From NCBI GenBank assembly GCA_963402885.1, contig OY727103.1, forward strand, positions 15,960,085 to 16,024,084: a stretch of 64,000 nt of DNA, written 5' to 3'. This document shows, piece after piece, positions 2,768 through 41,900 of this stretch (the first letter of the stretch is position 1; each line of letters begins with the position of its first letter). Both the position numbers and the translations under genes were made by a program. The notes beneath the pieces were generated by a model, which was not told where the DNA came from, searched no databases, and was given only the letters and a program-made list of their open reading frames with translations. The stretch is from Antedon bifida (Eukaryota > Echinodermata > Crinoidea > Comatulida > Antedonidae).

Positions 2768-4726
2768 TTATGAAGTGACCATAGGTATGTCAGAGGTCAA
2801 ATTAGGCTTCTTGATTGGTCGGCAAGAAGCTCCTCGTAGATGGCGACGTACATCAGCCGCGCGTGTGAAGTCGCGTCCGCATATGAGGCACTGTCGTGTG
2901 AATGCGCCGACGTGAGTGGTTAGGTGAACGCGTAGGTGACTGGCTTCATTGAACACCTCTTCGCAATACGAGCATTTGTGAGTGATGGTAGTCTCAAAGT
3001 GTATACAGCGATGCATCAGCATATCTTGAGCATGTTCAAACTTTTTGCCGCAGATGTCACATTCTTTACTCATGCTGATCTCACCTTCTTCTAAAGCTTT
3101 GTCATCGTCCTCTTCACCATCAGATTCTGCCGTCAACAATATCGACCCTTCTTCGTCATCACAATCTTCATCGCCCTCACTCTCTTCCATAATAATATCA
3201 TCTTCCGTTCCCTTCACATAGTTCTGAATCTTCTCCACCACTAGGCCCGCAGCTTCATCCTGATTCTCATCACCGCTCTCGTCTGCGATCACCGAGCACG
3301 AGAGCATGACCTTTTCATACTCCGCGTCAAGCGGTTCCTCTTTGATGATGATGTTATTACTTTCTTTCTGGATATCTCGGAGTACCTCCTCTTCACTTTC
3401 GCTTTTCTTGGCAGAGTCAAGTTGTGAGAAGCACTCGCTCATGCTGGAGTCAATGTTTTCAAGCATGGAACCTGGCGTGATCTCACCTTCCTCATTGATG
3501 TTTTCACCGTCCTGAACCAGTAATCCTTTCTCAGTTTGCTGTTTGAATGTAATATTGTGGCTAACATGAAGATGTGTAGCCAGGCTGGATCGTTGTCCAA
3601 AGCTCTTTCCACACAAGTGGCAGCAGATCATGTGGCCAGTGTGCGTGTGCTGGTGTTCCTTCAGACTTGCCAGAGTGTAATAAGCCTTGCTGCATTGAGC
3701 ACACTTGTACTTCGGCAAACTGGTGTGGCGTAGCTGATGAATGCGTAGCTCTCGGTGACGGTGGAACTGTTTATCGCAGACTTTACAGATGAACGGTTTG
3801 ATGGTTGCATGGGTCTGACGATGTTCCTTCATGTGGTGGTGGTACTTGTACGTTTTCCCGCATACATTGCACGGAAATCGTCCTTCATCGTTTCTACCAG
3901 GAAAGTCTTTGGCGCCACCTTCTCCGACATACTCTGTGTGGAAGCGATTCATGTGTTTACGGAGGACATCTGGATTACGGAACGTCTTGTTGCAAATACC
4001 ACATTCACATATTGTCTGGCTTGTGGAGGCTTCTGTGCAGGCATCGCCTCTGATGTTCTTCAGTAGCTCAATGTTAGAATTATCTAATGACTCAGCAGGA
4101 CTGATCTGACTGCGGCTAATTGCTACTGGTGGTGGTGGTGGAGGAGGAGGAGCAGCAGTAGCAGGAAGAATTATCTTCAACTTGGTTTTTGGTGAAGCTT
4201 GTTTCTTGTTTATAGGTGTAGACGTAAGTGGAGAGGGAGTCGTTCCCTTTGCCATCATTACATAGTTATTTAAAACCTGTATGGACCCACCTTGGGTAGT
4301 AGTCGAGTTGACAACCGGTTGAAGCTGGAATAAGTTACTGCTTGGTACGATGTTACCTTTTTCATCAACGACCTGTATCTGCATCGGAGTTGGGCCAACC
4401 TTGTTTTTGACATTCACTGGCAAGGGCTGTGCCACCAGTCCAGTAGGTATTGGTGTAGGTGACGGATTGCTGTTTGAAACGCTGTTTTCCGATACCTTAA
4501 CCTCGACACAGCAATCATCATTCTCGGAGCCAAACTGTATTTGTCTATCAGAGATACCAACCCCTCTGCCATCGACAATGCGCTCAAAGTTGCAAGATTT
4601 CAGTACACCTGTTCTGTCAAATTCCTTAAGGAGTTCACCAGAAGCATAGTACTGGCCATTCTTTGTGTTGTCTTGCTTTACCAACAAAAACACTTCGCAC
4701 CTTGTCTGTACGTATAGTTCATGCGC
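2768..4726 (-). CDS. terminal exon: second half of MADS-like domain plus eight zinc fingers
   Basis: The acceptor TTGTTTTCAG lies directly before GCG CAT GAA (Ala-His-Glu). The open frame continues upstream of the acceptor only as far as an intronic ATG at 4744, which should not be used as the start. The exon encodes 652 residues plus the stop. Each classical finger keeps the C-x2-C and H-x3/4-H spacing. Fingers 1-5 form one block and 6-8 a second, separated by about 165 acidic residues. Confidence 0.88.
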   Translation of the reverse strand, partial: AHELYVQTRCEVFLLVKQDNTKNGQYYASGELLKEFDRTGVLKSCNFERIVDGRGVGISDRQIQFGSENDDCCVEVKVSENSVSNSNPSPTPIPTGLVAQPLPVNVKNKVGPTPMQIQVVDEKGNIVPSSNLFQLQPVVNSTTTQGGSIQVLNNYVMMAKGTTPSPLTSTPINKKQASPKTKLKIILPATAAPPPPPPPPVAISRSQISPAESLDNSNIELLKNIRGDACTEASTSQTICECGICNKTFRNPDVLRKHMNRFHTEYVGEGGAKDFPGRNDEGRFPCNVCGKTYKYHHHMKEHRQTHATIKPFICKVCDKQFHRHRELRIHQLRHTSLPKYKCAQCSKAYYTLASLKEHQHTHTGHMICCHLCGKSFGQRSSLATHLHVSHNITFKQQTEKGLLVQDGENINEEGEITPGSMLENIDSSMSECFSQLDSAKKSESEEEVLRDIQKESNNIIIKEEPLDAEYEKVMLSCSVIADESGDENQDEAAGLVVEKIQNYVKGTEDDIIMEESEGDEDCDDEEGSILLTAESDGEEDDDKALEEGEISMSKECDICGKKFEHAQDMLMHRCIHFETTITHKCSYCEEVFNEASHLRVHLTTHVGAFTRQCLICGRDFTRAADVRRHLRGASCRPIKKPNLTSDIPMVTS

Positions 4727-5496
4727 CTGAAAACAATTATGCATTCAAAATTTATATATATATTTAATAAATATCAAAAGGAAAGTTATTGAAAAAAATA
4801 ACAATGCCAAGGATATCAGTGTTTGGATCTCAATGGAGAAACAAATAAAATAAGTGCAAACAGCTAAATCAAAGCGAAAGTAAAACAGCCAGAAAGAAAT
4901 TGCAGAGCTTTCAGATAATACTAACCCTTCCTAAGTGCAAATAAATATTTTATATTAGGGTGACCTAAACAAAATTATTGGCCAAAAATATCCAGTAGGA
5001 AGGGCGGGACATTTGTCGAACCACCCTTCCATTTCATCGCATTAAAATGAGGGAAGGGGTTAAATGTTTAAACCCTTATTTGGTTGATGTATAGCTCAAA
5101 GAATTCATTTACAAATCTATAATAATTAAAGAACTGATTTTTTAAAATTTAGTAAAATAGTATTAGAATGGGGTTCTTTCATGTATAAGCCTATTTTGTT
5201 TTGAATTTTGTTTGTTTCCTTTGCTAACAATAATAAATAATATTGTATCTGTTATAATATCATTATCAATACACTGTATCACAAAGAAATAAAAGAATTT
5301 CTCATTGTCATTTACGAATCTGCTTTAACCAAATGAGGTGAGTCCAGACATTTATTTATCTGATGATGATAATAACACTAACAGTAATAATACTTCACCT
5401 TCATAAAAATGGTCTTTTTCAAATGTTCTACAACCCACGCCCTCAGCATATCATTCTGAATGTACTGCATTTTGTAACAGTTATTGTGCACCAACC
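2768..5496 (-). CDS. MADS-like domain / C2H2 zinc-finger protein (two coding exons seen)
   Basis: Two minus-strand exons join in phase 0: 5496-5399, then 4726 to the stop codon at 2768. The first begins two bases into a codon, so either another exon lies upstream or translation starts at the ATG at 5470 (context AAAATG). From that ATG the product is 676 aa. Residues 1 to about 60 (KMQYIQN.., KKTIFMK|AHEL.., CEVFLLV, GQYYASGEL) align without gaps to the SRF-type MADS domain. Then come a Pro-rich linker, five C2H2 fingers (about 264-287, 310-330, 338-358, 366-386, 393-414), a long acidic region with a sumoylation-like IKEE, and three more fingers (580-600, 609-629, 637-659). The last finger is C2HC. 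Likely role: nuclear DNA-binding regulator. The zinc fingers are certain; the MADS assignment is inferred. Confidence 0.85.
5399..5496 (-). CDS. upstream exon: first half of MADS-like domain
   Basis: An acceptor (GTTTTACATTGTAG) precedes base 5496, and the exon ends ATG AAG with donor GTGAAG at 5398. It has 98 nt: two bases finishing a codon, then 32 codons without a stop. Joined to the terminal exon it gives KKTIFMK|AHELYVQT. The segment KMQYIQN corresponds to KMEFIDN at the start of the SRF MADS box, and the number of residues from there to the shared A-x-EL is the same. Confidence 0.65.
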
Positions 5497-8400
5497 CTAC
5501 AATGTAAAACAACGAGAATTGAAAGTTGCGGATTCACAATAATATAGACTGACTCTGTAGGCCTTGTAATACGGGAGAAAATGTGGATAAACGGAAGGAA
5601 GAATAATCTTAGGCATTGGATACAAGTCTAAAATGTGGCAGTCTCACGGCTAAAATGGGAGCGTTGGCATATGTATGCACACTGGGTTATATAACAAAAA
5701 AAAAAAGGCATATTCCTACACCTCACATGGGCAATGTAATCATTTTAAAATAAAATCAGAGTAGTATAAGACTCTAGGTATATTATAATTTAATAAGTTA
5801 TTCAATGACCAACGCCTTCTTTTATATATTTCGGAATATAATATGTGCAAATAATCTATTTGGTGGTACAATTTATATTAGATTTTTATTTGATCAATAA
5901 TTTTATAGCACATCTAGATGCACACTTAATTCCAATCTGCAATTTCACCAATTCATTTTTCTTCATATTTCTTACATTGGCTGAGCCAGTCTAGGCCTAG
6001 CTAGAAAGAAGGAAAACCTGTCTAGCTAGGCCTAGCTTGATCACTGTTTTTAATAATCATTATATACAATATCAACATTTATTTGTTTTTATATAAATAC
6101 AAGGAACATATTTTCAGTGGAATTAAATTCGGAAGTGTTTGGAAAATAATATTATGTATTGCATGAGTCGTATGTTGCGATAGGAATGATTATTTGACCT
6201 TTTTGATGACGAAACACTCTGGGAGATCTCGACAAGCGGCGGGGATGGATTCAATTATCCACATTCGCCGTTGTTAAAACAAGTAAATTATCGTTAACTA
6301 TCATCGGTTATGTGTCTGATTTCCACCAGTGAACATTGTAGTAATACAGGTGGTTTATGTTATAAAATATCGGCGACTAAAAAATAGTCTAGGCCCACTC
6401 GTTTCCACCCATGTTAGCTAAAATCATCATGACCCAGTGCGCAGTGACTCGCTCAAAGGGACGCAAACACAACCGTACAGCGTTGGCGTTTTATAGAGTG
6501 TGGCGTTTGCGCCGCACGGCCATCATGTATTTAGCACTCTGTAATTTAATCACAGACGTCTATCTCCCTAACAACACACATTGTGTGTAGTACGTTGTTC
6601 CAGTTAACATATAGAAACATACATGTCACTACCCCAATAATATATATAAGTACTACCTTTCAAACTTTATGCCAAAACAAATTAATCATGGGTTCCTCTG
6701 CTAAACAACTGCGCTTACGAAGAGCGGGCTCGGAAAAGGACGCCTCTTGCCACTTCCTACGTAGCGTGTTATCTGGCGCCCTCTTACTACACGTTGCGTT
6801 TATAAAACCAAACAAAAGGTGGGTTTCCTAATACGTGCGTATGTTTTTTATATATTTTTTGTTATAAAGTTATAAAAGTTTCATTAAAAAGTTTCTGAAC
6901 TTTATGTACGTCTATTGTAATAAATTATTAATCAATTAAAATTGCCATGCTGATAAAATCGGTTTGTTTTAATCCAATTCATTACGTAACTATACGGTAA
7001 CTGATTAACATAATTTTTCGTTCAATAATAACGAAAAAAAAAAAGTCTGTTTCTATTATAGGACCACTTAAAACGACCACCTTTTCATGTTAAAGATTTT
7101 TTTTAAACACATCGTATGATACATGGCTTAGTAAGAGGTAGCTAAAACATATTGATCTTATATCTATATTTCATGGGATTCATATGAATTTAATATTCAT
7201 TTGGTAATTTCAATATCTTGACAATTATACGTCTAGCCTTGTGCCCAGATATTACCATGATATTTTCCGCTCTATTAAATTACTATTCTGTATAGGCCTA
7301 TTGCTGATCGGTACCCTTTCAATTTTTATCATTGGAGGCACAAATATGATAAAAAAAATAATTTTAATTATTGTTATAATAATTATGTAACATCAGTCTC
7401 GCGCCTATTTTTCCTGTGAAATTCGAGGACAACAACAATTTATTTTTTGTTATGTCTCATGAATTAATGTCCTCTCCTTTTAAACATTTATTTTAGTTTC
7501 GAAATTAATTATTTATTATTAAAAATTAATAGAATTTATTAAAAATCTTTCAACTTCATGCGTCTCCATTTCTTAACATTTCACACCCACACCCCAAAGT
7601 TAGACATCAGAGACACGCCCATCTTTATTTTTACATAAAAATCAGGAAAAAGTGACAATAAAATGCCAGCTTAATGGGTTTGTTTACCTTTGATATTTAT
7701 ATCAAGTTATTTATTTATTTTCCGATACTACTATTGGTAAAATCATGATAAAATTTAAATATTTGTACACTGTAAATAAGACAAATAAAAATAAACAATA
7801 TAACACCAAGTAATTTCTTATAAGTAATTTATTTTATTAGAGAAATGTTGACAAAAATGGAAAAAAAAATATTTAATAATTAATCTTTTACAATAAACAT
7901 TTATAAATAAAATATAATAAAATATTTTTTTTTGTTTCAATCAAATTTTATTGAAAACAAATTTAATTTTAAAACATGTAATAAATCTTGTACAATAATA
8001 CATTCATCCAAAAAATAAAAACATTAATTTTCTTTCAATAATACATAATATTTAGTTATGTAATTGTTTATTTATTACTGACTTTTGTGGAAAAAGAGAA
8101 CAGAGGTAATAATTTAACAGTACTCAATTATTATAGAAATTAAATTAAGTTTTGAAGATGAAAACCACAATTATATAGTATAAACTTTATATATCTTTTT
8201 CTTGTGCAAATCTTCAAATACTATAAAAATAGACATTTTTATTATCAATTTCAGATACAATTGTCATACATTTCTTCACTCCACTGAGAGATGACATTAG
8301 AGTTAACTTCTAAATTCACAATAGAGGTAGTTTAAAATGTAACACGTACAAGAGGTTACCCATATAGGTCAAAGTTCAGGGTGGGCTAGTTACCATGGTG

Positions 8401-8661: not shown

Positions 8662-11600
8662 CTAAAATAGTAAAACACAAATGATAAATGCATAAAAGGT
8701 AACAATAATAGTGCAGCACTTCCTAATATGGGCCATAAATGATTTGTTATATATTATATACATTTTTTTTATACTTGATACTATTATTATATATTGTTTT
8801 TTTCAAAAACAATATAGCAACATTACAACTTGTGGCCAATGACCAGATTGCATGTCACCTTTTAATACAGGCTCTTAAAGATATAAAAAAAACACCAATA
8901 TATAAAATACATAAAAAGATGAAAAATGAAATTTACTTACTGGATTTAAATTATGTTTTTTCATTCCTTCTAGAATTTCTTTCAAATCTATTGGCTCACC
9001 AAAAACTATTGTGATCTTTTTCCCGATTTGTGGTATATATGGTGCTCTGTTTGGTAATATGTTCTCCATTCCCTGATGCCAAAATGGAAGCACTATTGGT
9101 GCTTTATTGCACTCCATTATAGCCCTACCAACTCCTGTAAAAGAAATGTTCATTAGTATTTGTAGTATGACCCACGTTAGCCTGGAGTAATCATTTCAGT
9201 GATAGGTTTGGCGAAAGCTGATAGCTAAGGCTAGAGCTATATTTGTAGGGCTGATATGTTGCAACAAATTTAATAAAGACTTACCCCATTTAAACCTTAT
9301 GAACTCTCTTGTCATGTTAACTTTTCCTGAAAAAAAAAATTAGAAAAAAACAACTAGAGGTATGAACGCCAGGCTGGTGAACTGGAAGTCGTGGGTTCAA
9401 GTCCCACACGAGAATTACTTAAAGTATAGTAGCATATCATTACCATATTTGGGCATATGACTACCATATTTAGGCACATCACACTTTTTTTGTCATACTA
9501 GTTTGATAGTGTAGACAGACCTTTATAGTGAGAATAGTGTTAGCATGGATATCCTGTAAGGAAGCCAAGCCTGTAGCCAAGGATTATGTGTAGTGGAAAA
9601 GAAATCTCCCAGCCCATAAGTAAAATAATTTACATAAAAAGAAAACGTCTACTAATGCAATCAGCTAATATGTCTATTCTATCACTAGTATTACCTTCGG
9701 CAAAGAAATGAAGCCACTCGCCACAGTTGAGCCTTTCAATTCCGAAATCAAGGGCCTTCTGGTACACCCCATCACCTGAGTAAAAATAAATGTGTACTCA
9801 TGAAGTAGGGGTAGATATGAGAGGTAGGGGTAGATATGAGAGGTAGGGGTAGATATGAGAGGTAGGGGTAGATATGAGAGGTAGGGGTAGATATGAGAGG
9901 TAGGGGTAGATATGAGAGGTAGGGGTTGATATGAGAGGTAGGGGTGGATCTGAGAGATAGGGGTAGATATGAGAGGTAGGGGTAGATATGAGACGTAGGG
10001 TAGATATGAGAGGTAGGGGTGGATATGAGAGGTAGGGTAGATATGAGAGGTAGGGGTGGATATGAGAGGTAGGGGTGGATATGAGAGGTAGGGGTAGATA
10101 TGAGAGGTAGGGGTAGATATGAGAGGTAGGGGTAGATATGAGAGGTAGGGGTAGATATGAGAGGTAGGGGTAGATATGAGAGGTAGAGGTAGATATGAGA
10201 CGTAGAGGTAGATATGAGAGGTAGGGGTGGATATGAGAGGTAGGGGTGGATATGAGAGGTAGGGGTGGATATGAGAGGTGGGGTGGATATGAGAGGTAGG
10301 GGTGGATATGAGAGGTAGGGGTGGATATGAGAGGTAGGGGTAGATATGAGAGGTAGGGGTAGATATGAGAGGTAGGGGTAGATATGAGAGGTAGATGAAA
10401 GGGTTAGGTGGTAACTCAGTAGGGGCGGGTAGTGTAGTGAAGACAAGTTGTCTTGTGTTATGGAAATGTATGTATGATGAATGGTAATTAGTAAGTAGGT
10501 ATTAGGATACTTATTACACCACAAAACTAAATTATAATTACTTACCTCTTATTGTAGGAAGGCCTTTACCCATGTGGAAGAAATATGTGTGCCTAGTTGT
10601 CTCAAAGCACAATTCATTAGCTGGAAGCCCCCTTTAAACAAAACAAATAATATCATGTAAATCACTTATTTTTATATAGATTATATGACCCCTGGCCCTA
10701 AAGTTATCATTGACTATTTTCAAAACAAATTTGGTTGGTATTTATTAAATTATAGTAGTACATAAATGACTATCGCAAAATGAAAGTTAGTATTTTTTTT
10801 TCACATACCATCTCGTCTTCTTTCGGTTCCTCAAATCTTTATAATCCATACAACCTAAAAAAAACCAATAACAAACATCATTAGATATTAAATATACGTG
10901 TTATGCGCGATTTGAACGATTTGCGCAATTTGAAATTGCGCAAAAAATTCCTTGCGCAATTTGAAATTGCGCAAAGAATTCTTGCGCAATTTGAAATTGC
11001 GCAAGGATTTTCTTGCGCAATATTAAATTGCGCAATCAACTTGCGCAATTTCAAATTGCGCAAGAAAATCCTTGCGCAATTTCAAATTGCGCTGCACAAT
11101 TTGTAAAATTGTCAAATTGCGCAACAGAATTCTACCAGAATGCGTGCTAACGTCGACGATTGGTTAACAATAATAATTTATTTGAAACTAAACATGAAAC
11201 ATATTAAATGCGAAGATAACATGTGTATAATACACAACATAAATGGCATACACAATTAAATAATATTATCACTCATTGTAACTTGAAATACATCAAAATA
11301 AATGTAAAAATAACAAAAAATAATGTAGAATACACAACATAGTCTACCGCCACCAACGTTTAGACTTGCTATCAAAACATAGCCAGTACTAGTGCCTGGC
11401 TAGAGTAATACCCGCCCGCCGGAGAACACCACCGCTTTGTTTTCCTTTGTCGGGTCTTCGTTGGTATGCTAACAATAACAACATTTTCACTATTAAAATA
11501 AGGAAATGCGATATTATCTTTAATTTTTAATCATTCTTAGAAATTACTATGAAAATATGGGTGTGCATGATTTCACAATCTGTCGAAAAACCTTGCACAA

Positions 11601-12356
11601 TTTGGAGATTACTTGCGCAATTTATTACGTTTCTTGCGCAATTTGAAACAGATGTTTCAATTTAAATTGCGCAAGGAATTCTTTGCGCAATTTTAAATTG
11701 CGCAAATCGTTCAAATTGCGCATAACATACACACTCTACTCAGAAAAAAACTTTGGTGGAACCAATGTTGATTTTTATATTAAATTAATTAAATTTGAAA
11801 CATTATTTTTTTCTTTTTTAATGCTCGCCCATCACAAGATGTATTTCTTCATCATGACTTCTTGCAGAATTTGTAAATAAATGAAATGAAAGCGATATAT
11901 TTACCCCATAGAAGAGGATCATCTAGGCATGAGGTGTGATTGGAAACTGTAATCAGCGGAATGTCATGTGCCCGATGTTTGATCGCTTTATTGAGAGCAG
12001 ACAGATTTACAGTTTTTAATGTGTTCAACCAATCTGAAATTTTAAAAAAAATTTTTTAATTAAAAGTTTAGTATAAATTCATATATTATTTTATGTATTT
12101 AGGCCTAGCCCTATTAGGTAAACATTTAATTATTAACATTTAAAAACAATGCATATGATATTAGGCCTAGGCCTAAGTGAAGGCAGTGTAATATATACCT
12201 AAATAAGGCAAATAAATATTTTAGGCTAGGCCTAGGCTACGTACTTAACCAGACTTTGCAAAGGGTAGCAACTCCAAAATGAGTCGCCGCCGTGCCGAAC
12301 TTCCAAACAAATCCAGGTTTGGCTGGATATCTCCACTGGCCTGGCTTCAAAGGCAT
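8563..12356 (-). CDS. TAFAZZIN: tafazzin, mitochondrial cardiolipin transacylase (complete, 8 coding exons)
   Basis: Coding exons on the minus strand: 12356-12245, 12033-11905, 10854-10809, 10631-10546, 9775-9695, 9326-9285, 9134-8941, 8661-8563. All join in phase and give 262 aa, the length of the human isoform lacking exon 5. The family moves acyl chains between phospholipids and lyso-cardiolipin at mitochondrial membranes. Seen here: N-terminus MPLKPGQW with a hydrophobic stretch; the acyltransferase HX4D motif in SNHTSCLDD (His70, Asp75); RGDGVYQKALDF at about 124-135; FAEGKVN (about 149-155), where the family normally has FPEG; GVGRAIMECN..PIVLPFWHQGM; QIGKKITIVFGEPI; and the C-terminal helix MRKKITDIIEEEMK. 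The start is the first ATG of the only open frame in exon 1. Confidence 0.95.
8941..9134 (-). CDS. TAFAZZIN: tafazzin exon 7
   Basis: Encodes GVGRAIMECNKAPIVLPFWH through GKKITIVFGEPI and KKHNLNP, ending at CCA|GTAAGTA. It covers the conserved C-terminal half of the acyltransferase fold. Confidence 0.95.
9285..9326 (-). CDS. TAFAZZIN: tafazzin exon 6 (42 nt)
   Basis: A micro-exon encoding GKVNMTREFIRFKWG between an A/T-rich acceptor ending CAG and the donor GG|GTAAGTC. Confidence 0.93.
9362..9414 (+). repeat. tRNA-like fragment (box B present), likely SINE head
   Basis: GTGGGTTCAAGTCCCACACG has a perfect tRNA T-arm with box B. The upstream half (CCAGGCTGGTGAACTGGAAG) is only partly tRNA-like. 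No full cloverleaf can be drawn, so this is a SINE or tRNA-pseudogene fragment in a tafazzin intron. Confidence 0.5.
9428..9526. repeat. MITE family A, truncated copy
   Basis: It keeps the right end CTAGTTTGATAGTGTAGACA and the internal ACCATATTTGGGC/CACATCACA words shared with four longer copies in the foxP introns. The left terminal repeat is missing. Confidence 0.65.
9695..9775 (-). CDS. TAFAZZIN: tafazzin exon 5 (FAEG motif)
   Basis: Encodes DGVYQKALDFGIERLNCGEW and LHFFAE, with Gly split over the donor GAAG|GTAATA. The codon GCC gives Ala150 where PlsC-type acyltransferases have Pro in FPEG. Confidence 0.93.
9801..10394. repeat. 19-bp minisatellite, about 31 copies
   Basis: The unit is GAGGTAGGGGTAGATATGA (19 bp) with small variants (GGATAT, GAGACG, one-base deletions). 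It fills most of the intron between tafazzin exons 4 and 5. A 250-aa minus-strand ORF through it is just the repeat translated with a 19-codon period. On the transcribed strand the repeat is CT-rich. Confidence 0.95.
10546..10631 (-). CDS. TAFAZZIN: tafazzin exon 4
   Basis: Encodes GLPANELCFETTRHTYFF and MGKGLPTIRG. Donor GAG|GTAAGTAA. It joins directly to the DGVYQK exon, as in vertebrate transcripts without exon 5. Confidence 0.93.
10809..10854 (-). CDS. TAFAZZIN: tafazzin exon 3 (46 nt)
   Basis: A micro-exon of 14 codons plus two split codons (CMDYKDLRNRKKTRW), flanked by TTTTTTTTAG and GTATGTGA. Its register matches human ILKLRHIWNLKLMRW. Confidence 0.9.
10899..11727. mobile_element. foldback element with TTGCGCAA-rich inverted arms
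   Basis: The outer ends are inverted copies: TGTTATGCGCGATTTGAACG on the left, and CGTTCAAATTGCGCATAACA on the right. Both arms contain tandem short palindromes of the form TTGCGCAATTTGAAATTGCG, at 10,901-11,120 and 11,590-11,727. The 470-bp centre is unrelated AT-rich sequence. No transposase ORF is present. The element lies in the intron between tafazzin exons 2 and 3. Confidence 0.75.
11905..12033 (-). CDS. TAFAZZIN: tafazzin exon 2 (HX4D catalytic motif)
   Basis: Acceptor AAATTTCAG, donor GGG|GTAAAT. Encodes WLNTLKTVN through PLITVSNHTSCLDDPLLWG. It holds the catalytic His and Asp of the HX4D motif. Confidence 0.95.
12245..12356 (-). CDS. TAFAZZIN: tafazzin exon 1 (start codon)
   Basis: Encodes the first 37 residues plus one base. 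The frame at the next acceptor requires a donor at TTAA|GTACGT (phase 1), giving VWLN|WLNT. This reproduces the K-x-x-L-x-W-L-N-T pattern of invertebrate tafazzins. A stronger-looking donor one codon earlier (TCTG|GTTAAG) would break the frame. Confidence 0.85.
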
Positions 12357-12765: not shown

Positions 12766-14510
12766 CACGCACACTATAACACAGAATCACACAATTAAAG
12801 AAGGAATTACACAATTAAAGAAGGAATCACACAATTAAAGAAGAAATCGCATATAAACAAAAGAAAGCATGAAAATATAAAACGAAATGCACAAATAAAG
12901 AAGAAATGCACAAATAAAGAAGAAACGCACAATTAAAGAAGAGCTAAGCACAATTAAAGAAGTCCGCAACAAATTCGAAAGCTCCTCGCACAATTAAAGA
13001 AGTCCGCAACAAATTCGAAAGTACCTCGCACAATTAAAGAAGTCCGCAACAAATTCGAAAGCTCCTCGCACAATTAAAGAAGTCCGCAACAAATTCGAAA
13101 GTGCCTCACACACAATTAAAGTACAGTAGTCCGTATGGAACGCCATTGCTGCCTCCGGCAGCAAACTTTAATTCTATTCGGCTCTTTTACCATTACGTTT
13201 GGCTCTTTTACCATTCGGCGCATTTCTATTCGGCGCATTTACCATTACGTTCGGCTCTTTCAGCATTCGGCGCATTTCTATTTGGCCCATTTACCATTAC
13301 GTTCGGCTCTTTCAGCATTCGGATCTTTTTTATTCGGCCCATTTACCATTACGTTCGGCTCTTTTTAATTCGGCCCTTTTTTATTCGGCTCTTTCTGCAT
13401 TATGTTCGGCTCTTTTTGATTTGGCCCTTTTTTATACGGCGCAATTAAATTCTAACCTTTTACATGGGGTCAAATGGAAGAAAATCAACGGCTGGAAATG
13501 AGTCTATGAAAAGTTTACAAAACATATAGATGCAGCATGTAAAGTGTTTGGTTGGTTGAATTAAATGAATTTGAAGGCTATTTCAATTTATTGACATGAT
13601 TAATGTGTTAGCTAGAGAACTTGCAATTGTCCCACCTTATTGACCATTTTGAGAGAGAAAAGGTTTGATTTATGGCCTAGGCTAGCTAGGCCTAGCCTGT
13701 GTCAGCCTAACATTTAATAATAATAATTTACCCTTTCTCTCTCAAAATTTGTTAAAAGATGAATTAATTTTAGGTTATTCAACACATCTTTAATCGGTTG
13801 GCTACTCATGGTTGGCGCCATGATGATGAAATGTTTGTAAACTTTTCATAGACTCATTTTCAGTCGTTGATTTTCTTCCATTTGACCCCATGTCAAAGGT
13901 TAGATTTTAATTGCGCCATATAAAAAAATGCCGATTTAAAAAGAGCCCAATGTAATGCAGAAAGAGCCGAATAAAAAAGGGCCGAATCAAAAAGAGCCGA
14001 ACGTAATGTTAAATGGGCCGAATAAAAAAGAGCCGAATGCTGAAAGAGCCGAACGTAATGGTAAATGGGCCAAAAAGAAATGCGCCGAATGCTGAAAGAG
14101 CCGAAGGTAATGGTAAAAAGGCCGAATAGAAATGCGCCGAATGGTAAAAGAGCCGAAGTAATGGTAAAAGAGCCGAATATAATTAAAGTTTGCTGCCGGA
14201 GGCAGCAATGGCGTTCCATACGGACTACTGTACTTTAATTGTGCGAGGTACTTTCGAATTTGTTGCGAACTTCTTTAATTGTGCGAGGAGCTTTCGAATT
14301 TGTTGCGAACTTCTTTAATTGTGCGAGGTACTTTCAAATTTTTTGCGGACTTCTTTAATTGTGCTTAGCTCTTCTTTATTTGTGCATTTCGTTTTATATT
14401 TTCATGCTTTCTTTTGTTTATATGCGATTCCTTCTTTAATTGTGTGATTTCTTCTTTAATTGTGTGATTCCTTCTTTAATTGTGTGAATATGATTTATAT
14501 AGTGTGCGTG
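12766..14510. mobile_element. large foldback element (1.75 kb) with tandem-repeat arms
   Basis: The arms (about 12,766-13,527 and 13,831-14,510) are reverse complements, starting CACGCACACTATA and ending TATAGTGTGCGTG. From outside inward each arm has a CACAATTAAAGAAG repeat array, then longer units with CCGCAACAAATTCGAAAG (CGAAC or AAAAA variants on the right), then TGCTGCCTCCGGCAGCAA, then a tandem region of CATTCGGCTCTTT/TTTACCATTACG units, then a unique segment up to TGGAAATGAGTCTATGAAAA. The centre of about 300 bp is unrelated. ORFs in the arms are repeat translations. No transposase is encoded. Confidence 0.85.
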
Positions 14511-35900: not shown

Positions 35901-38900
35901 TGTTGTGATGAGGTGCGTATGATGGATGGCTATCTAAATAGTTTACAACAAACTTAATGTACTTCCCAATTTACATGCCTTTCTTCTATCTTAGCGTTTA
36001 TTTTGTTTAAAATGCATTGTTTTTGTGATGCTTCAAAAGTGGAGGTACTTTTTAATGACTTGTTTATTTCTTACAATTACCATATTATAGTTGTGTTCAC
36101 ACACAACAGAGTTAACTTTCTTATAACTTTGTGTTATTATAACCTCTAATGAGGTTTCAGATGTACAGGTATTCCTGCTGTACATCCAAAGTACCTTTAA
36201 TTAACTCTGATGTTTCAGAAGTGATAACCTGCCCACTGGATTATTAACAGCAGATTATCGGATTTAATTTGTGCGTGTGAACACAGAACAAGCTGAACTA
36301 CAATCTAACTCCAATAGATGACTAATTAATTCCGATAGAGGAAAGAGCATGTCGTCGTCGTGGTCCTGTGAGTCATGACTGACCCTTTGTGCTCCTGCTT
36401 ATGATGACATTCCACCCATCTCTATCCTGAGCATAGCGAGAAGCTGTGCACACATCCAATCCTGTGATCTCTCTAATACCATCAGTCCATCTTATCTTCT
36501 GTCTACCACGTTTTCGCTTGCCTTCTACATGACCTTGTGCAATTATCTTTTCCAGGTTGTCACCTTCTCTCCTGGCAATGTGACCAAAGTACTGAAGTTT
36601 GATCTTATCAACCTTCTGGCATAGGTTGACTCTGCTTCCAATCTGGTTGTTAACAAATTCATTTGACTTATGCTCCTTCCACGATATCCTCAACAATCTC
36701 CTCCAACACCACATTTCAAAAGCTTTGATCTTCTTTCTATCCGCAGCTCCAAGAGCCCATGTCTCAGATCCATAAGTGGCAATCGGAAATACCAATGCAT
36801 TCATGATATGAATCTTTGTGTTTCTTGATATCCCTCTATCCTTCCAAATGTTGGTAAGACCTATTGTGGATGTTCTAGCCATAGCGAGACGACGTTTTAT
36901 TTCCTCTGAGCTTCCTCCAGTGTCAACAATCAGGGAGCCAAGAAAGTTGAAGGTGTTGACTACTTCTATGTCCTCTCCATCTGCTTGAATGCGATGTTCA
37001 TTCTCATTCTTCCTTCCACTTATCATTACTTTCGTCTTCTTGACATTGAGGTAAAGACCATATTCCTCACTGGATTGCTTTACTCTTTCAATCAGATCTT
37101 GGAGTTCTGCCGCAGTTCTTGCAAGTAAGGTTGTGTCATCTGCATATCTCAGATTATTTAATTGCCGGCCACCGATAGATATCTGCCCCTCGTATCCATC
37201 CATGGCAATCCGCATGATGTATTCTGCGTAGACATTAAAGAGATACGGTGACAGGATACATCCTTGGCGTACTCCTTGACCTATCGTAAACCAGTCGCTA
37301 TCTCCACACTCTGTTCTGACCGTGGCTTCCTGCCCATCATATAAGGATTTTATCAAGACAATCAGATGTGTTGAGAAGCCCATTTTGCGCATTACTCTCC
37401 ACAATTTCTGGTGTTGAACACAGTCAAAAGCCTTTGTGTAATCTATGAAACAGAGGAAAAGTGGCTGCTGAAATTCCATGGTCTTCTCCATCAAATTCCT
37501 CAAGTTTCCAATCTGATTTCTCGTCCCTCTTCCTCTCCTAAATCCAGCTTGCTCTGGTGGTAATTCACTTTCTAACTTATTCCTGATTCTGTCTGCTATA
37601 ATGTGGAGCAGGACTTTACTAGCATGAGGGATAAGTGAAATGGTACGGTTGTTAGCACATTCCCTTACATCCCCTTTCTTCGGTAATGGGAGAAATACTG
37701 CCTTTTTCCAGTCTTCGGGCCATTCTTTACTCTTCCAGATCTTGTTGCACAATCTATGGATGATAACAACACCTTCCTCTCCACTTTCCTTCAGCAATTC
37801 TGCCTGGATGTTATCTACTCCTGGTGCTTTACCATTTCTTAACTTCTTCATTGCATTTTCAACTTCACAGAGAAGAATATCTGGGTCATCTTCAAAATCT
37901 TGCTGTTCTCTCTCCTCCTGTGTATCATCATCTTTGGATGCATACAACTGTTCACAGTATTCCTTCCACCTTGTTTTGATTTCATCTTCTTCCGTCAAGA
38001 TGTTACCATCTTTGTCCTTCAGAACATTGAGCCTGTTGCTAGGTTTTGAAGTCAGTAGCTTGATGTTTTTATACATGTCTTTGGTGTTGTTTGTAGCGCT
38101 GTCCTTCTCCACCTCGGCACATCTCTGTCTGATGAACTCTGTTTTGTCATTTCTGATTTGTTTCTGGATTTCTCTTGATAAATCCCGGTATTCTCTTCTC
38201 CTCTCTGCACTTTCCAGTCCTTTTTCTTTGACCTCTCTCCTCTGATCAGCCAGGGCAAAGACCTTTTCTGTCAGCCAGGGGTTTCTTCTGCTCTTGCGTT
38301 TGGGGATCGTTTTCTGTGCTGTTTCTAAAGTTGCCTGCTTGATGTCTTGCCACAGCTCATCTGGGGTGGATTCTTCCGGGTCAAGTTCCATTAACTTCTG
38401 AAATTTGTTCTTCACTTCCACTCTATAAGTATCATCTAACTTGGTGGTATCAAATCTCACTGGTTTTCTTGGCTTCTTGATCCTTCTCAATTTCATCTTC
38501 ATGGTAGAGACGAGAAGCTGGTGGTCTGATCCGCAGTCTGCTCCTGGATAGGTTTTGGCAGAAGTAAAATTAGATCTCCATCGCTTCTGGACCAGAATGT
38601 AGTCAATCTGATTCCTATAGCTTCCGTCCGGTGATAACCAAGTATACAACCGCCTTGGGTGCTGCTTGAAGAGGGTGTTAAGGATCATTAGTCTATTTTC
38701 TTGGCAGAAGTCAATCAGCAGTTCTCCTCTCTCATTTTGCTCTCCTAGTCCGTAGTTGCCCATCACATTTTTGTTGGTGCACTGTCCTCCTACCTTGGCA
38801 TTAAGGTCACCAATAATTACCAGGATGTCTCTCTTATTGATGTTTTCTATTGTCTGTTGCAGTAGCTCATAGAAAGTGTTAATTTCATCTTCGGTGGATG

Positions 38901-41900
38901 AAGAAGTGGGTGCATAGGCTTGAATAATTGTGAGATTCATAGGGGTTCCTTGAATGCGGATGGTGATGATTCTTGAACTGACTGGGTTATAGCCAAGCAC
39001 GCATCTGGCTACCTCCGGGCAGGCGATAAAGGCAACTCCCTGTTCTCTTTTTTTCTCAGTACCAGAGTAGTAAACAACTTGTTTGCTTGATGTTACAAAG
39101 TGCCCTTTCCCTGTCCATCTCACCTCTGATACACCACACAAGCTAACATCACGTCTCTCCAATTCTCTTGTCAAAATGTCCAATTTCCCACTGTTCATTG
39201 TCCTGACGTTCCAGGTAGCAATTTTCAAGGTAGTTTTCCAGAGGTTACATCTGTTATCATTTCCCTTGGCGTTATCAGCTCCTGCATGTCCAATTGGCTT
39301 TAATGCAGCAGCGTCATCGATGCAAGGTATGATGTCATCTGGCCTCTCTTCCCCAGTTGCACTTGAGACACCTTCCGGCCTGGGGGTCCCACTTTCCGGT
39401 GTCATAACTCTTTTATCATTAGTTGAAATCATCATCAGGTATACGCGGCAAAGAAATTAGGTGGTGGTTTGCCATTGCCTTCCACCTCTGCTGGATGGCC
39501 GCCGTTGGCTCTCCTGAGCCGGCGCCCTTAAAAGATGGATTTTGTTTTTAGTTCCACCTGGGTGTCCAGCCACCCACCTCACCAGCACCTAAGTGGGTAC
39601 TGGTGGGGGTGCGGGTTTAGTCGCCCACGGCCCGACCCTGAACAGGTTGTACTGGTTACAGGTTACCAGTAGCAAGTCCCCTCAGTCTGACTCCAGTCAG
39701 ACGAGGAGACTTGACCTGACATGTAAATATAGCTTAATATACTGATACTGTAGTTTTGTGCCCGACAATCGCTGACAAATTCACTCATTAAAATTGTTTC
39801 AAAATTATTGGTTTAAAAGCATCTGTTTCACCCAAAACAGATTTTGTATTTTTGGTGAACTTCAGCAAAAATAAAAATACCATATTATGGAATGTACAGC
39901 AATTTCTTGTTAATAATAAAAATAGTAAAATTTAAATGAAACCTATTGATATTTAAATGAACTATTTTTTAGGGTTAAAATTAACTGATCTGAGTAAAAA
40001 CACAACTTTTATGAGTAATCCCATACCATGTGGTCAGTGTGTTGATACTATGATACAGTACATAGGATACTGATCTCATCTCTTTTCACATCTCATAAAT
40101 CAAAATGTTCAAAACAGCATAATATTGTATGTCAATTTCACAGAAGTGACAATAAATTTTTATGCAAAAGTTAAGAATTTAAAAAAATGACACCACATTA
40201 ATGGTTATTTATAATGTTGTATATAAACTTTTAGCAGCGAATATAGCTCATGGGCAAATAGTGTCTAAACTACTACTACTACTTTACTACTAACTCTACT
40301 TACTATTAAGGGGACACCTTCGGGACTCATCAAAGTGTCCCCTTAATAGAGGTTTTCCATAGTGTTTATTGGTCCTCATTCATTTCAAAGGAAAGTGTTC
40401 CTTAAAGTGGGATGTCCCCCGAGTAAAGGTTTCCCAAAGGAGAGGTTGTACTGTAATTATTATTATATGGTATATGTGTATTTCAAAAATATCATTGATT
40501 CATAACATTTTGGCAGCAGAAAATATGGTACAATTTATTTCACAATTTTGTATTTTTTTAGAAGTCCGATTTGAAGTCGCCTCTGAGCCTAATATCTCAC
40601 CAGGGCCAGGCTTTCATCTTACCTCAGCAACTCACAGCTCAGCAAATGCAGCAACTCTTACAGCAACCAAGTGTCATGTCACCACATCAGTTACAGCAAC
40701 TCTTGCAGCTGCAACAGCAGACGTTCATACAGCAGCAACAGGTAATTCACTTGCAATGTCTTGTGGGCTGCGACAAGTAGTTGCAGAAGATTAGTTTTTC
40801 AGCAACTTTGCTTTTGTTGGTATATCATAATTGATCATGCAAGGAAGCCTACTAAAATGTTGGCCAGAGGAAGAGATAAGAAAATAGTCTTAGATAATGT
40901 GCACTTTAAAGAACCTAGTACATCTTTCGAAACAAGTAAGGGGTTACAGCCACTGATCATAACTGGGCCCTCTGGGAGACCAGTATTTGAATGAAGTATT
41001 AGAACTAACACCAACAAAAAAAGTTTTTTAACCACCTATATGAATAATATGCCATAATGGTAAGAGATCTTGGGCTAATCTGGAAGTTACTGTTATTTCT
41101 ATAGTACAGTATCAGAATTTATTTTACACATTTAATCGCATTCCTATGTATATTAGATTGGAAATTCATTAAATTGGAAATTCATTAAATATAACAAGAA
41201 ACAGCTTACGCATTGTTTGAAATATTAAAAGGAAGAAACGTGTAACGCAACGTTGGAATTATGTTAATAACTAATAATATCAACAGATCACTGTTTCTAC
41301 ACAATTTATTAGATGCACTTGAAAGCTAATTGGTTTCACGACAACAATCTAATATAAAATTATAACAAAGCTTAATGTAATGTTGAATATTAAAATCGAA
41401 GTGTAAAATTGCAACATTGTTAAAATCGTGTTTAATAAATAATGAAAATACCATTTCTATAATATTTAATAGATGCACAAATGAACGTATATTAGTTCCA
41501 CTACAGTGACCTATATAAAATTGTTGATCACTTAAGCTTTTACAAGCTGATTCTTCCCATTTAACACGACGTAATTGAGTAATTCCGAAGACGCACAAGT
41601 TGCCACCACCTAAAACCATTAGAATGTGTAGTTAGTAACGAGTTGAGAATCCGTGCCAAGTCTCAATTTGGGTTCTGTCACTCATATATATTAAGTAAGT
41701 GTCTCTCCCGGTTATTCTTCTCAAAAATGTCGTTTTTATTGTGCTGTTATCTACGACTGTGTATCATGGTTTACGTGTAATGCCTCATTCAACGAACAAA
41801 CAACCCTCGTAAAGGCACATGCATACTAAATATAACAAATGAAATGACACGTTGAAATCGTTTATATTCTCTTGTAAGTAGACCTGCCTACACTACGCAA

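Follow-up and report, generated by a model that had tools for sequence, protein, structure and literature searches.

The minus strand of a 64,000-nucleotide stretch of the Antedon bifida genome (hereafter the window) carries, at positions 2768–5496, a gene that ends in zinc fingers, and the question raised by this locus is what its N-terminus is and what it does. A first-pass annotation had proposed a diverged MADS domain, divided between two exons, that is used as a DNA-binding or dimerisation module. Two papers describe the MADS genes of animals as SRF-like and MEF2-like, and in one of them type I is usually represented by one SRF-like factor (PMC10178880, PMC3048864). The reading favored here, with a probability of roughly 0.6, is that the locus is a C2H2 zinc-finger gene with an N-terminus derived from an SRF-type MADS domain, which would now act as a pairing module ahead of DNA-binding fingers.

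The gene can be modeled with two exons on the minus strand. Exon 1 (5399–5496) is bounded by a GT donor at 5398–5397 and an AG at 5498–5497; its 3′ end reads AAG followed by GTGAAG. Exon 2 (2768–4726) is a 652-codon open frame that holds the remainder of the MADS-like domain, a linker, the zinc fingers and the stop codon, and TTTTCAG lies directly 5′ of it. The intron between them (4727–5398, 672 bp) is in phase 0 and splits the domain before the A of A-x-E-L. From the ATG at 5470–5468, 24 codons of exon 1 encode the first half of the MADS-like domain (MQYIQN...FMK), and the second half, AHELYVQTRCEVFLLVKQDNTKNGQY, occupies residues 25–50 (4649–4726). The first-pass claim that the two exons join in phase holds at the level of sequence: the GT and AG sites are present, the phase is 0 and the frame is continuous, so that the predicted product of 24 + 652 codons is 676 uninterrupted amino acids. 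The 5′ end of exon 1 is based only on the AG at 5497–5498. Bases 5471–5496 keep the frame open and are probably 5′ UTR; since they contain no ATG and, if no splice intervenes upstream, an in-frame stop stands 22 codons 5′ of the start, the simplest model would begin translation at the ATG at 5470–5468. The K of the KM motif is encoded by the codon directly 5′ of this ATG and would belong to the protein only if translation started farther upstream. At 6718 of the window (minus strand), a GTAAGC donor-like site follows a locally open frame, which may be a 5′ UTR exon of the zinc-finger gene.

The choice of donor was assessed by comparing the 25 codons before each minus-strand GT upstream of the acceptor with the half domain of A. 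bifida's own SRF, anchored at the intron. Among 3,120 GTs in the window (469 of them within 10 kb), the donor at 5398 ranked first in likeness to own SRF with a score of 31, and the runner-up (score 22) lies 52.7 kb away. That the two exons stay unjoined, with translation starting within the exon 2 frame and the MADS half being a decayed remnant, is the least probable of the alternatives considered, for although the exon 2 frame stays open back to MHNCFQ, whose Met at 4744 falls within the intron, and exon 1 is bounded on its 5′ side only by an AG, the GT/AG pair is in phase and the top-ranked of 3,120 donors sits only 672 bp upstream.

The zinc fingers share exon 2 with the second half of the MADS-like domain. 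They form two groups on the minus strand, placed with PF00096 and a residue pattern: fingers 1–5 (3557–4003; residues 266–287, 310–330, 338–358, 366–386 and 393–414) and fingers 6–8 (2822–3061; residues 580–600, 609–629 and 637–659), with a translated linker containing acidic runs between them (3062–3556). PF00096 exceeds its cut-off in exon 2 in eight stretches (E 3.1e-27, 93.8 bits). The earlier count of eight C2H2 fingers is correct in number but not in kind, as the eighth ends in Cys; the pattern gives seven C2H2 fingers and one C2HC finger. A ZAD, SCAN, KRAB or BTB N-terminus was considered and rejected, with no zf-AD, SCAN, KRAB or BTB Pfam family found for either of the submitted pieces. 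The best match to the fingers elsewhere in the genome is at C1:33112041-33112646 (32% identity, E 3.4e-21). No MADS-like stretch was noticed on reading that frame, and no frame from the 9.9-kb region around it was among the 14 best for a MADS HMM.

Profile searches place the N-terminus closest to the MADS family. When 24,736 Pfam models were compared with the joined 165-residue N-terminus, PF00319 (SRF-TF) came first with E 0.0016 (residues 16–45), which bears out the proposed relationship as the best in Pfam but leaves it, at 18.3 bits, below the curated cut-off of 26 bits. The only other family at E ≤ 10 was DUF3244 (E 0.15), at residues 117–158 and hence outside the MADS-like part. A MADS HMM built from four sequences (own SRF, human SRF, yeast MCM1 and own MEF2) aligned as far as residue 50 and gave the joined sequence 25.1 bits, compared with 11.3 bits for the best of 9,997 shuffles; most MADS scores used sequences starting 1–2 codons before the ATG, and one matching K in them is possibly outside the protein. 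With the same HMM, the second half, taken from one residue ahead of the intron, reached 13.5 bits and the first half 2.9 bits. An HMM of SRF-type sequences only (own SRF, human SRF and MCM1) gave 20.7 bits vs 9.1 bits for the best shuffle, and one of own MEF2 only gave 14.6 bits vs 10.6 bits.

The Smith–Waterman alignment to own SRF scored 63 over 44 ungapped residues, 16 of them identical, and was matched by none of 5,000 shuffles; the alignment to own MEF2 exon 2 scored 51, a value reached by 2 of 5,000 shuffles. Whole-domain scores were 63 for SRF, 54 for MEF2 and 52 for MCM1. Several likenesses pointed out in the first-pass annotation can be traced in these alignments. The stretch from KM to AHEL counts 29 residues, as does the KM-to-AYEL stretch of own SRF; the two align gap-free, with R, K, I and K matching between, and the resemblance of CEVFLLV to the SRF strand is real, with own SRF reading TQVMLLV. 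The proposed pairing of GQYYASG with HVYTFAT lies beyond the local alignment to own SRF, which stops at the preceding residue pair D/E, and the stretch fits MEF2 (FQYAS) better.

Exon 2 taken alone carries a weaker signal. Its first 60 residues gave a score of 32 with SRF, reached by 65 of 10,000 shuffles, and of 45 with MEF2, reached by 4 of 10,000. Among 4,038 real stop-to-stop frames of at least 25 amino acids, drawn from the window and 27 loci with overlapping frames counted repeatedly, the exon 2 frame appeared in three copies against the MADS HMM (8.9, 7.8 and 7.6 bits), and with E values of only 0.27–0.67 it is indecisive as to MADS. Those above it among the 14 best frames were SRF and MEF2 exons and L014 (13.9 bits), a locus that had been fetched by the PF00319 search. 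A phmmer search of PDB chains with the N-terminus returned no MADS chain at E ≤ 10; its matches, three L-aspartate oxidase rows (E 0.21–0.6) and a xanthan lyase (E 3.5), were taken as chance.

The residues themselves are a mixture of kept and altered positions. Among the 17 columns invariant in own SRF, MCM1 and own MEF2, eight are kept (I, R, K, K, A, E, L and the strand L) and nine are altered. The changed columns include those which we take to correspond to human SRF T160, F161, G167 and L178, and these may matter for the fold. The positions presumably equal to human SRF K163 and R164 are now H and L, while the presumed equivalents of R157, K165 and K171 are retained. Four residues that are K, S, K and R in own SRF are D, E, H and L in the zinc-finger gene. 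KM is preceded by codons reading LVHNNCY, vs GRVKI in own SRF, so there is no Gly-Arg arm; an unseen upstream exon could supply extra residues, but not at SRF's spacing. Over the 18-column helix stretch the net charge is +2, vs +8 in SRF, +8 in MCM1 and +6 in MEF2. The hydropathy profile correlates with that of the MADS family at r 0.577, which none of 20,000 shuffles reached. Judged by its residues, the domain has kept the family's A-x-E-L core together with its hydrophobic strand and hydropathy profile.

Structure prediction was applied to the first 91 residues of exon 2 alone, as a single sequence. The model (pLDDT 43.6) has long strands at its own residues 29–36 and 42–51 and no helix of four residues or more, and its strands are not at CEVFLLV (10–16) or QYYAS (25–29), the expected MADS places. 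This half-domain model gives no support for a MADS fold, and it is best regarded as uninformative, because its confidence is so low that it deserves little weight. The first-pass interpretation is partly supported: four partly independent lines favor MADS descent, and the half domain, modeled at low confidence, is without the expected strands.

The position of the intron offers a separate view of descent. The intron of own SRF (C14) interrupts the MADS domain after ATCATGAAGAAG, followed by GTAATC, and the domain resumes with GCCTATGAATTA directly behind TTTGCAG, in phase 0 and before A-Y-E-L. The site is identical in phase and in residue to that of the zinc-finger gene (MKK/AYEL in own SRF, FMK/AHEL here), whereas the intron of own MEF2 (C15) lies 13 codons earlier, between NRQ and VTFTKRK. 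An intron site held in common with own SRF suggests that the ancestor was an SRF-type gene, duplicated at the DNA level. On the strength of the Pfam ranking, the MADS HMM compared with shuffles, the donor ranking and this shared site and phase, an SRF-type MADS gene is the most likely ancestor of the N-terminal domain, and these four lines, which are partly independent, support its MADS descent. The likeness to SRF, the type I animal MADS factor, lies in the ungapped alignment and the intron; SRF differs in its GRVKIK arm and more numerous basic residues, and in the zinc-finger gene the arm is absent and fingers follow the domain. The likeness to MEF2, the type II factor, lies in the second half of the domain, but the MEF2 intron is placed elsewhere and the whole-domain score is lower than that of SRF. 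As the second half alone is closer to MEF2 (45 vs 32 for SRF), which runs counter to the intron signal, the type I assignment comes mostly from the intron and the first half.

It is improbable, if a little less so than a missing join, that the MADS likeness arose by chance or convergence and that the N-terminus is some other small domain. The Pfam score below cut-off, the PDB search without any MADS chain, the alteration of 9 of 17 invariant residues, the lack of significance of the exon 2 frame among real frames and the low-confidence model without MADS strands would all fit such an origin. They are opposed by the agreement of the HMM scores against shuffles, the donor rank and the common intron site, and by the position of the only competing Pfam family, DUF3244, outside the MADS-like part.

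The genome (315.6 Mb in 27 contigs) was searched for other genes of this kind. A six-frame search with PF00319 at E ≤ 10 gave seven stretches: one from MEF2, two from SRF and four with weak scores of 15.4 to 17 bits. Those over the cut-off belong to one SRF, with two exons (C14:13909494), and one MEF2 (C15:5064728). The zinc-finger locus was not among the seven, which confirms the earlier suggestion that the exon split hides the MADS domain from single-ORF searches. No second genome copy of the N-terminus was found, the sole matches at E ≤ 1 being the gene's own two exons. Among viral contigs four stretches fit a pattern and among prokaryote genomes 13 did, with none confirmed in either set, an absence that is expected for an animal gene. 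The mitochondrial contig, C27, suggests a crinoid: its cox1, located with PF00115, shows the expected conserved residues when translated with code 9 (AGR Ser, AAA Asn, ATA Ile), a code common to echinoderms and flatworms, and a frame resembling nad1 runs on the opposite strand. The crinoid Thaumatocrinus naresi also has nad1 and cox1 on different strands (PMC10013537).

The window contains other features besides the zinc-finger gene. Open frames at 8875–9195 and 11852–12055 (minus strand) resemble what we take to be tafazzin exons; the latter has a weak match to Acyltransferase (PF01553, E 0.0017, 18.6 bits, below the cut-off of 23), and the former has no Pfam match at E ≤ 0.01. A 1027-codon open frame at 36376–39456 (minus strand) encodes endonuclease and reverse transcriptase domains (RVT_1, E 8.2e-36) and is, by its domains, a non-LTR retrotransposon of the LINE type. 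A tandem array at 9805–10394 (19-bp unit, 31 copies, 95% match) is open in three minus-strand frames, yet it is not gene-like. Further tandem arrays with 40-bp and 52-bp units, at 12908–13447 and 13939–14364, are followed by what appear by eye to be reverse-complement arrays, and on the same visual impression the layout resembles a large inverted element with its paired arms.

How could a MADS-derived domain function in front of zinc fingers? Two functions had been suggested, DNA binding and dimerisation, and dimerisation would fit better, given that the domain lacks both the arm that would contact DNA and most of the family's net basic charge. The altered invariant residues, the lower helix charge and the missing arm, together with the family-like hydropathy, lead us to infer that CArG binding was lost and the pairing fold kept. 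Because it scores below the Pfam cut-off and the arm is missing, the protein is not classed as a DNA-binding MADS factor. The Gly-Arg N-terminal arm of MADS proteins enters the minor groove, and in SRF and MEF2A arginine 3 of this arm is essential for DNA contacts (PMC7892521).

A different possibility is that the MADS-like part still binds DNA, so that the protein would recognize a composite site made of a degenerate AT-rich half site, bound by the MADS-like dimer, and flanking sites bound by the fingers. This is also unlikely, although it survives better than the other alternatives. It could draw on the retained equivalents of R157, K165 and K171 (human SRF numbering), and MADS dimers normally bind DNA (PMC10178880). 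Conversely, the helix is not preceded by a Gly-Arg arm, D, E, H and L replace own SRF's K, S, K and R, and the net charge of the helix is +2 compared with +6 to +8.

Under the preferred reading, a pairing module ahead of fingers, the fusion would have retained SRF's phase-0 intron within the domain; the match is observed in one genome, from which the history is reconstructed. The MADS-like part would fold as a small helix-strand unit, and this unit may pair two copies of the protein, or the protein with another MADS protein such as SRF. Both finger groups would then bind DNA, and the protein as a whole would work like the ZAD-, SCAN- or BTB-zinc-finger factors. These C2H2 proteins likewise have a small N-terminal domain with fingers farther on, but here that domain would be of MADS descent. 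ZAD and SCAN, at the N-terminus of C2H2 proteins, are reported to form homodimers by preference (PMC5509000).

A literature search of CC-licensed PMC papers found, among the titles and opening lines of abstracts listed, no animal protein that combines MADS and C2H2 domains. In nine species surveyed for transcription factors, 1 to 5 SRF-TF genes were counted per species, the default threshold being 1e-4 (PMC8122590), and with such numbers extra or diverged MADS genes are possible elsewhere. What would be new in A. bifida is a known type of C2H2 factor, but with an unusual N-terminal domain that is probably MADS-derived. A broader interpretation, for which we would put the odds somewhat short of even, is that a C2H2 gene took up an SRF-type MADS domain and made it into a dimerisation module. 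The result would be a class of animal transcription factors parallel to the zinc-finger proteins with ZAD, SCAN or BTB domains, and animals would then have three kinds of MADS-derived gene, SRF and MEF2 being the other two. A MADS-derived zinc-finger gene of this build would escape searches that take one exon at a time, and the gene described here gives comparative studies of echinoderms something definite to look for. If the proposal is true, it would provide an example of a DNA-binding domain reused for pairing after shedding its DNA-contact residues, and the protein, should it pair with SRF, might serve as a natural modulator of that factor.
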